Shown: one piece after another, positions 46,652 to 49,153 of the stretch | How positions within the stretch are numbered: position 1 is the stretch's first letter | Layout: every line of letters starts with the position of its first letter | Assembly (NCBI RefSeq): GCF_016863635.1 | Contig: NZ_BOPG01000102.1 | Location: 1 to 64,000, forward strand | Source: Virgisporangium aurantiacum | Lineage (GTDB): Bacteria; Actinomycetota; Actinomycetes; Mycobacteriales; Micromonosporaceae | Length of the DNA: 64,000 nucleotides | Direction: 5' to 3' | Notes under the pieces: generated by a model | Told to the model about the DNA's origin: nothing | The model's database searches: none | Seen by the model: the letters and a program-made list of their open reading frames with translations, nothing else | Program-made: the position numbers and the translations under genes

Positions 46652-46877
46652 AGGGCTGAAGCCTACTTCGTACCCGGTGGTCGGCCCTCGAGCCGGTCGT
46701 CGTCAATGCTCAGGCCCTCTCGCGAGTGTCATCTGGCCATTCGTGCGATCGACCGCAGGGGTGTAGCTGGGTTGAATGGTTGCTGTCGCGCTCCGGATCG
46801 CGCGCTCTTTTCGCGAATCGTTTGGCGGCGATTCACTCGTGCCGCACAGCGACGGTCAATCGACCTGGGATGGTGAC

Positions 46878-47270
46878 ATGTCCAACCCGTTGCATGATGC
46901 TGCGGGCAACGTCGTGGGCTGGACCGCTGAGACCGCGACGGATGCAGCGACGCAATTCGTCCCTGTGCCCGGAGAAGGCTGCAGCCCGGGTTGTCTAGTT
47001 GCGCTGCTGGCGTCGCCCGTGGTGATCCTTTTTTGTGGCGCCGGGGCAATCGCATGCGCCTATGATTCGTTCGTCGGCTGGATCACCAACCTGCGCACGA
47101 ACAACCGGGAAGGATTGACGTACGAGGAGGCCCAGGCCGAGAACAAAGTATCTGAGCACCTGCTCCAGGTGTGGGGTGCGGTGACCTTCGCGGTTCTGGT
47201 GGTTCTGGTGATCCTGGCTGTGGTCGGCGTGGTCGTATATCAGTCCCGACGGGGTAAGCGCCGGCCATAG
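46878..47270 (+). CDS. Small two-helix membrane protein
   Basis: About 130 residues from ATG 46878; in-frame starts reach 46776 but add poorly conserved-looking sequence. Two membrane segments (CLVALLASPVVILFCGAGAIACA and VWGAVTFAVLVVLVILAVVGVVVY) flank a cytoplasmic loop (NREGLTYEEAQAENKVSEHLL). The N-terminus is MSNPLHDAAGNVVGWTAETATDAATQFVP. Not recognised. 46652-46877 and 47271-47495 hold no supported gene. Confidence 0.55.
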   Translation: MSNPLHDAAGNVVGWTAETATDAATQFVPVPGEGCSPGCLVALLASPVVILFCGAGAIACAYDSFVGWITNLRTNNREGLTYEEAQAENKVSEHLLQVWGAVTFAVLVVLVILAVVGVVVYQSRRGKRRP

Positions 47271-47495
47271 CACCGTGGTTCGAGGCCGACCCAGCCGGTT
47301 CTCGTCAGTTCCGCTCCAGCCACCGTGTCGGCCATCCACCTTACGAACCCCCGAGGCTGGGCCCCTGTCGGCTGGATGACAGTTGGTGCCCGGGTGGAAC
47401 CTTTGTGGGTCCGTCCGGATGTAGTAGGCATGCGGCTGGAGCTGACGTGCCGGGATCTCGCCGGGACCGGTACCGGCGCAGAAGGGGATCGCTGC

Positions 47496-48017
47496 GTGCC
47501 GACCGGTCCCGACATCGATTTCAACGCCTTCGTCAGGGCGCGCACGGGGGCGCTCCTGCGGACCGCGTACCTGCTCACCGGTGACCGGCACCTGGCCGAG
47601 GATCTGGTGCAGGACGCGTTGGCGAAGGCTCATCGGGCGCGCCGTCGGTTGACCTCCGAGAGCCACCTGGAGGCGTACACCCGCACGGCGATCTACCACC
47701 TGCACATCCGGTGGTGGCAGCGCCGGAAGGCCCGTTCGGAAGTGTTGGCCGGGGAGTGGGCCGATCCGCGGGATCCCACGGATCATCCGGACCGCGTCGC
47801 CCTGCGGCTGAGCCTGCAACACGCCCTGGCCCAGTTGAACCGCCGCCAGCGGCTCGCGGTGGTGCTGCGGTACTTCGAGGACAAGACCGAGCGTGAGACC
47901 GCGGAACTGCTGTCGTGCTCGGTCGGCACGGTCAAGAGCCTGACCAGTCGCGCCCTGGCCCGGCTGCGTCAGATCGCACCGGAACTCGACGAGCGTTCGA
48001 CCGGTAAGGGGGTGTGA
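47496..48017 (+). CDS. SigE-family ECF sigma factor
   Basis: 173 residues from GTG 47496 with GAAGGGGA upstream. Region 2 is FVRARTGALLRTAYLLTGDRHLAEDLVQDALAKAHRARRRL and region 4 is LNRRQRLAVVLRYFEDKTERETAELLSCSVGTVKSLTSRALARLRQ, the SigE-family pattern common in Micromonosporales and Streptomyces. It overlaps the next gene by GTGA. A GGAACC element near 47396 could be an ECF -35, but no convincing -10 follows. Confidence 0.92.
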   Translation: MPTGPDIDFNAFVRARTGALLRTAYLLTGDRHLAEDLVQDALAKAHRARRRLTSESHLEAYTRTAIYHLHIRWWQRRKARSEVLAGEWADPRDPTDHPDRVALRLSLQHALAQLNRRQRLAVVLRYFEDKTERETAELLSCSVGTVKSLTSRALARLRQIAPELDERSTGKGV

Positions 48018-48616
48018 ACATGGGTCTGGAGGATCGGCTGCGCGCCGGCCTGTCCGACCTGGCCGAGGGGGCCGGGTGGACGGACATGGAGGACCGGGTC
48101 GCGCGGGCGTCGCGGCGGATGGCGATCCGGCGGCGCGTCGCGATGTCGGTGGCCGCCGCCGCACTGGTCGTCGCCGCCGTGCCGGTCGTGCTCATGTCCC
48201 GGTCGTCGCCCAACCCGCCCGATCATCTGGGGGACCCCGCCTCCCCGACCGAGACGGCGACACCGGCACCCAGCACGTCGAGCGGCCGTCCATCGTCGAC
48301 GCCGTCGTCGGCATCGGCATCGGCATCGAACGACAGGGAGACGACGGGCTGTCCCGTGTCGGCGGCAACGTTGCTGGCGACGCTGCCGAATGCCCACCTG
48401 GGCACGGACTTCGGTCATCCAACCCGGCTGAGCGAAGTGACCTGTTACAAGCGGTACGCGACCGCGTTGCCGGTACCTCCGGTCGGCTCGGTGCGGATTC
48501 TCTTCGGCTACACCTTGCCCGAACGCACCTGGATCGCGCTCAACGCCGGGCCGGCGGGCATGTGCGACCGCTACGTCCTCGACGAGGCGATCAGCTCCCG
48601 TCTCCCCGGCTGCTGA
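48014..48616 (+). CDS. Membrane-anchored protein with a four-cysteine C-terminal domain, sigma-factor partner
   Basis: 200 residues, start overlapping the sigma stop. A cytoplasmic basic N-terminus (GLEDRLRAGLSDLAEGAGWTDMEDRVARASRRMAIRRR) could contact the sigma factor, though no zinc anti-sigma motif is present. One membrane helix (VAMSVAAAALVVAAVPVVL) and a Pro/Ser/Thr linker lead to an outside domain starting CPVSAATLL. That domain contains CYKRYA, ILFGYTLPERTWIALN, MCDRYVLDEA and a terminal GC. The same domain recurs in the next gene. It may act as an anti-sigma factor with an extracellular sensor; inference from context. Confidence 0.8.
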   Translation: MNMGLEDRLRAGLSDLAEGAGWTDMEDRVARASRRMAIRRRVAMSVAAAALVVAAVPVVLMSRSSPNPPDHLGDPASPTETATPAPSTSSGRPSSTPSSASASASNDRETTGCPVSAATLLATLPNAHLGTDFGHPTRLSEVTCYKRYATALPVPPVGSVRILFGYTLPERTWIALNAGPAGMCDRYVLDEAISSRLPGC

Positions 48617-48652
48617 CCGCTGCCGGCCGCACCATCCACATTGGAGAGTTCC

Positions 48653-49153
48653 ATGTTCAGTGTCCGCACCATCGTCCTGATCATCGCCGCCGGTGCGGCT
48701 CTGGCCGCCTGCGACCCGGCCCCGACCACCACGAGCGGTCCCACCGCGCCGCCCACCACCACCCCGCCCACGACCGCGACGACGGCCGCGTCGCCGGCCA
48801 ACACCGCGACCGACACCCCGCCACCGACCTCAACCCGGACGCCCACCCCGGGCAACGCCGACGCGCCCGACGCCTGCCCGGTCAGCGCGCAGACCCTGCT
48901 CGGGGTTCTCAAGGGAACCGACATCGCACATCGGGGAGGCGACCCGACCGCGCTCGAAGGCGTCAGTTGCTACAAGAACTACGCCTACGCCCGCGACGCG
49001 GACAAGACGCAAACCCACGAACGCGCCTATTTTCTCTTCGGCTACGTACGGCCCGGGAACCGGTGGATCCCGCTCAACCTCGGCACCGGCGGCGTCTGCG
49101 AGGGATATGTGCTCGACAAGGCGGTCCGCGACCGGCTCGGCGAAGGCTGCTAG
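48653..49153 (+). CDS. Lipoprotein sharing the four-cysteine domain
   Basis: 166 residues with TTGGAGAG before the ATG. Signal MFSVRTIVLIIAAGAALAAC has lipobox LAAC, followed by a long Thr/Pro-rich wall-spanning linker. The C-terminal 90 residues align with the preceding protein: CPVSAQTLLGVL, CYKNYAYA, YFLFGYVRPGNRWIPLN, VCEGYVLDKA, RLGEGC, so four cysteines are conserved at matching places and probably form two disulfides. The pair looks like a duplication with different anchors, one transmembrane and one lipid. Function unknown. Confidence 0.82.
   Translation: MFSVRTIVLIIAAGAALAACDPAPTTTSGPTAPPTTTPPTTATTAASPANTATDTPPPTSTRTPTPGNADAPDACPVSAQTLLGVLKGTDIAHRGGDPTALEGVSCYKNYAYARDADKTQTHERAYFLFGYVRPGNRWIPLNLGTGGVCEGYVLDKAVRDRLGEGC

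Follow-up and report, generated by a model that had tools for sequence, protein, structure and literature searches.

Operons that pair an ECF sigma factor with a membrane anti-sigma factor usually place, directly behind the sigma gene, the gene for a single-pass membrane protein with a cytoplasmic N-terminus and an extracellular, sensing C-terminus. Class I anti-sigma factors carry an N-terminal four-helix domain (ASDI), and the retrieved set averages ∼100 residues, cut at 50; the class II anti-sigma factor CnrY is short and wraps the ECF sigma factor with a segment of two helices (PMC7406223). In Clostridium thermocellum, the GH10 module of RsgI6 is 57% identical to the regulated secreted Xyn10D, and the SigI sigma factors autoregulate (PMC4711584). 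The sigE-cseABC operon of Streptomyces coelicolor is classed ECF39 (PMC8999054). Its lipoprotein CseA, encoded with sigE, lowers sigE promoter activity, and a contact with the sensor kinase has been speculated (PMC6767563). The ECF48, ECF52 and ECF53 groups consist of sigma factors fused to regulatory membrane extensions (PMC8999054).

The window, the whole 64,000-nucleotide stretch of Virgisporangium aurantiacum DNA analysed here, carries on its + strand a sigma gene (47496..48017, 173 aa), the gene of a putative anti-sigma-like single-pass membrane protein (P0001, 48020..48616), and a lipoprotein gene (P0002, 48653..49153), in that order. An earlier sequence-only reading had named the first a SigE-family sigma factor, and its product scores 164.6 bits against the NCBIfam model TIGR02983 (SigE-fam_strep), above the curated cut-off of 141.55, and matches Sigma70_r2 and Sigma70_r4_2 in Pfam. 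The gene probably starts at GTG 47496, because homologues begin there and the putative ECF promoter TGGAACC-N16-GATGTA (47395..47423, + strand), identified as a motif match, sits just before the upstream ATG 47430. The same reading had the membrane protein gene overlap the sigma gene. ATG 48020 is the more likely start than GTG 48014, and as it lies two bases past the sigma stop at 48017, the genes abut without overlap; the fusion of a cytoplasmic and transmembrane (TM) segment to an extracellular domain stood. Only 36 bases separate the membrane protein gene from the lipoprotein gene, so that the two probably form one operon. A small membrane protein without a family match above cut-off is encoded just 5′ of the sigma gene (46776-47270).

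Both proteins end in a four-cysteine domain of ∼90 residues, and the two anchored forms beside the sigma gene are those that the sequence-only reading had described. The membrane-anchored copy (48350..48613, + strand) was delimited by sequence comparison and the lipid-anchored copy (48875..49150, + strand) by sequence comparison and an AlphaFold2 model. The copies are 45% identical (41/92, E = 1e-23). All four cysteines correspond, as do the opening CPVSAxTLL, CYKxYA, the pair of strands LFGYxxPxxxWIxLN, and the GC at the end. In the lipoprotein, the domain follows a LAAC lipobox and a Pro/Thr-rich linker; in the membrane protein, it follows a short cytoplasmic segment, a TM helix, and a low-complexity linker. 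Sequence searches of Pfam, NCBIfam and PDB, with the window proteins and with 7 and 52 aligned members against family models, found no relative, and a PHROGs search returned nothing usable. By these comparisons the domain is previously undescribed, as had been supposed. Structure prediction, proposed at the time as a check, gave a confident model of the lipoprotein domain (pLDDT 86.6, pTM 0.80), a small alpha+beta fold with the order helix-helix-4 strands-helix and without a clear structural match. Foldseek returned no solved structure at E <= 0.001, the best VIA score (Z 5.5) lay among unrelated chains, and the fold search gave weak cystatin-like or NTF2-like rows only, which are not proof of a new fold.

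The sequence-only reading would have been refuted by a lack of linkage to sigma genes elsewhere, and this linkage recurs. When 301 genomes of this family of soil bacteria were searched with the window's sigma factor, the nearest group comprised 33 sigma factors, counting that of the window (E <= 3.1e-57, 58-67% identity), set off by a step in the list from the next ones, which start at E = 3.5e-55 and beyond. The downstream membrane protein carries the domain at every one of these loci (33/33). A separate domain lipoprotein is present at 29/33, lying upstream with one or two domain copies at 28 and downstream in the window; the other 4/33 encode a double-domain membrane protein and have no lipoprotein nearby. 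A sigma-segment query recovered the order lipoprotein-sigma-membrane protein at 22/22 loci of named species, which belong to Micromonospora, Actinoplanes, Paractinoplanes, Plantactinospora, and Nucisporomicrobium. The genes flanking the cassette differ between genera. The sigma tree clusters the nearest group, with the truncated L187 falling inside, in a topology that is not settled as the bootstrap did not converge. A literature search, with the 2021 ECF re-classification outside its reach, found no paper naming this sigma group.

The partners of slightly more distant sigma factors were also compared. At 18 of 20 further loci the partner keeps the N-terminal pattern LR..L..LAE....DL..R.L..SRR and a TM segment; the remaining two, L179 and L180, are among the 33. 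Where the full sequence is readable, the partners of these more distant sigma factors carry other sensors instead of the four-cysteine domain, two of them matching PD40 propeller and DUF11 models. Five genomes encode a wider-family SigE sigma factor fused to a TM partner with a large extracellular sensor (L238, L239, L240, L241, L245), which argues that partner and sigma factor work together. These natural fusions resemble ECF48, ECF52 and ECF53 in architecture, whereas the cassette keeps sigma factor and partner as separate genes.

A common motif precedes these operons. Before the first gene at 32 loci lies GGCAACC-N16 followed by a -10-like CATGTA, CGTGTA, CGTGTG or GCTG(T/G). The copy in the window is the most divergent and weaker than the consensus, with the same spacing and place as in the homologous operons; it is the sole match to GGMACC-N16-SRTGTA in the window, with 0.04 expected in shuffles. 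The strict form of the motif occurs once per genome in 11 cassette genomes, always at the cassette. The looser GGCAACC-N16-CRTGTR is found at the cassette in all genomes scanned (30/30), along with scattered extra sites, and a reversed-pattern control gave 0-4 per genome. Because of the position of the motif and the resemblance of its -35 part to S. coelicolor SigE sites such as GGCAACC (PMC6767563), we infer that the sigma factor uses it. Near-identical motifs also stand before a distant, unlinked domain lipoprotein in G278, a genome with no lipoprotein gene at its sigma locus, before a secreted BNR_4 protein in G211 and G229, and before a LuxR-type response regulator in G276 (loci L250, L251 and L249 for the latter three). 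At unlinked domain lipoproteins the motif did not rise above background, with 3/82 scored within 600 nt versus 1.9% of windows. Control of all domain lipoproteins by the sigma factor was considered and rejected, as the unlinked ones lack the motif.

The domain, the architecture, the recurrence, and the common motif point, with a probability of roughly 45%, to a self-contained, autoregulated ECF sigma switch in which one ligand is read both by an anti-sigma-like sensor and by a lipoprotein that serves as the main output and probably also as negative feedback. The short cytoplasmic segment at the N-terminus of the membrane protein would hold the sigma factor, and the four-cysteine domain outside the cell would be the sensor part of the same protein. 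The sigma factor would drive its own operon from the GGCAACC-N16-CRTGTR-like promoter, and activation would raise the lipoprotein, whose place is taken in some species by a second copy of the domain on the membrane protein. Sensor and lipoprotein would compete for one extracellular ligand, and the lipoprotein, by occupying it, would probably damp the switch. The recurrence at 33/33 and 22/22 loci, the motif before the operons, and the non-conserved flanks speak for such a switch; against it, most domain proteins fall outside the proposed regulon, since unlinked lipoproteins lack the motif, the window's own motif departs from the consensus, and the relationships among the domain copies do not require a common ligand.

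The C. thermocellum SigI/RsgI system provides a precedent for a shared sensor module with autoregulation, in that the anti-sigma factor has an extracellular module similar to the regulated secreted product. It differs in its type of sigma factor, in its known carbohydrate-binding modules, and in product genes that mostly lie elsewhere in the genome, whereas in the window the operon itself encodes the product, and no ligand is known for the domain. The cassette adds to ECF signaling an extracellular domain that appears undescribed and a recurrent two-anchor architecture. It is compact, has a defined candidate promoter, and occurs in well-studied genera (Micromonospora, Actinoplanes), and a single operon makes it testable whether the copy of a sensor domain on a regulated lipoprotein acts as a decoy, a partner, or mere output.

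The decoy role is possible, on the doubtful side. In such a receptor-decoy ECF system, matched ligand-binding copies would sit on the anti-sigma sensor and on the sigma-induced lipoprotein, gene conversion would keep them alike in some lineages, and the lipoprotein would titrate the signal and set the gain. In the window, L151, L160, and L157/L170, the two copies of a locus group with each other. In L151 (Micromonospora chaiyaphumensis) the DNA of one domain is 98% identical to that of the other, and 78/79 third positions are equal, so that recent gene conversion or duplication acts at times; such homogenisation is clear in single cases. General concerted evolution of both copies was rejected: only at 9/29 loci does the membrane copy find its best match in the lipoprotein of the same locus, and most Micromonospora and Actinoplanes loci have their lipoprotein and membrane copies in two distinct, old clades. 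From these clades and best matches it follows that a shared ligand is not demanded by the sequences.

A third ligand would be dispensable if the lipoprotein bound the domain of the membrane protein directly and thereby reported lipoprotein export or envelope state. We regard this homotypic pairing as decidedly doubtful. The same domain on both proteins of one operon would suit it, as would the four membrane proteins and the many lipoproteins that carry two domains on a single chain. S. coelicolor sigE-cseABC is a partial precedent, with an ECF sigma factor of the same broad TIGR02983 naming and an operon lipoprotein that damps the response (PMC6767563), but CseA has no domain of this shared kind, control is by a two-component system, there is no anti-sigma factor, and the promoter is not a SigE target. 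Unlinked single-domain lipoproteins without a partner are, moreover, common.

The lipoprotein could also be merely a sigma-controlled envelope protein with no effect on the switch. It is usually the first gene after the promoter, and the other candidate targets, such as the secreted BNR_4 protein and the response regulator, are of a kind with plain output. This explanation is unlikely, as it leaves unaccounted for the presence of the same domain on the sensor at every locus, and twice on the sensor at four loci.

The sign of the membrane protein's action bears on a further alternative, in which it is a tether or activator of the sigma factor rather than its inhibitor. The AlphaFold2 model of P0001 (mean pLDDT 68) has helices at residues 3-17 and 20-51, the second running into the TM segment, then a low-confidence linker and the four-cysteine domain from residue 111. 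The cytoplasmic segment, ∼38 residues and two helices, is too short for the four-helix ASDI of class I, and the class I and zinc motifs of other ECF anti-sigma factors are absent from it. No anti-sigma family in Pfam or NCBIfam matched the window protein or any of 22 membrane-partner homologues. The natural sigma-partner fusions indicate coupling, not its sign. A tether or activator is quite improbable all the same, since class II CnrY is likewise short (PMC7406223). Size and helix count, the two features compared, agree between the P0001 segment and a CnrY-like one. The operon order, the single TM segment, and the extracellular sensor are also the usual anti-sigma arrangement, as is the probably autoregulated promoter; the locus departs from it in its short segment, its extracellular domain outside Pfam and NCBIfam, and a same-domain lipoprotein in the operon. 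The operon position, the N-terminal motif common to related partners, and the fusions are indirect hints that the membrane protein may be an anti-sigma factor in the functional sense, one that binds and inhibits its cognate sigma factor. A chance neighborhood or annotation artefact is hardly credible, for although the window's pair is old and divergent and could stem from tandem duplication, the same arrangement stands at 33/33 and 22/22 loci with non-conserved flanks.

The domain itself is not confined to sigma loci and is not a sigma-specific module. The tie to sigma genes held as a recurrent link, but most copies sit on lipoproteins encoded at a distance from any sigma gene of this kind. 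A seven-sequence profile found the domain in 83/301 family genomes, mostly on unlinked lipoproteins that sometimes form tandem triplets. The window's own genome has a third copy, on a lipoprotein (contig C48:123407-123691; L036:5408-5691) with no sigma gene nearby and without the promoter motif. Beyond the family, a sigma-linked profile did not find the domain in a phylum sample of 396 genomes; among 395 genomes of a class sample, it was found in three other genomes, all of the same order. Two of these three, from another family of the order (L233, L234), have a related domain that follows an LppP/LprE (PF14041) lipoprotein domain in one fused protein, and no PF14041 match occurs in the window proteins or elsewhere in their genome. 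In one genus (g66), domain lipoproteins are arranged in head-to-tail arrays, with three copies in L081 and L086 and two in L083 and L084. At L105, L106, L107, L110, and L112, the domain is part of open frames 650-720 aa long and mostly sits close to the N-terminal end.
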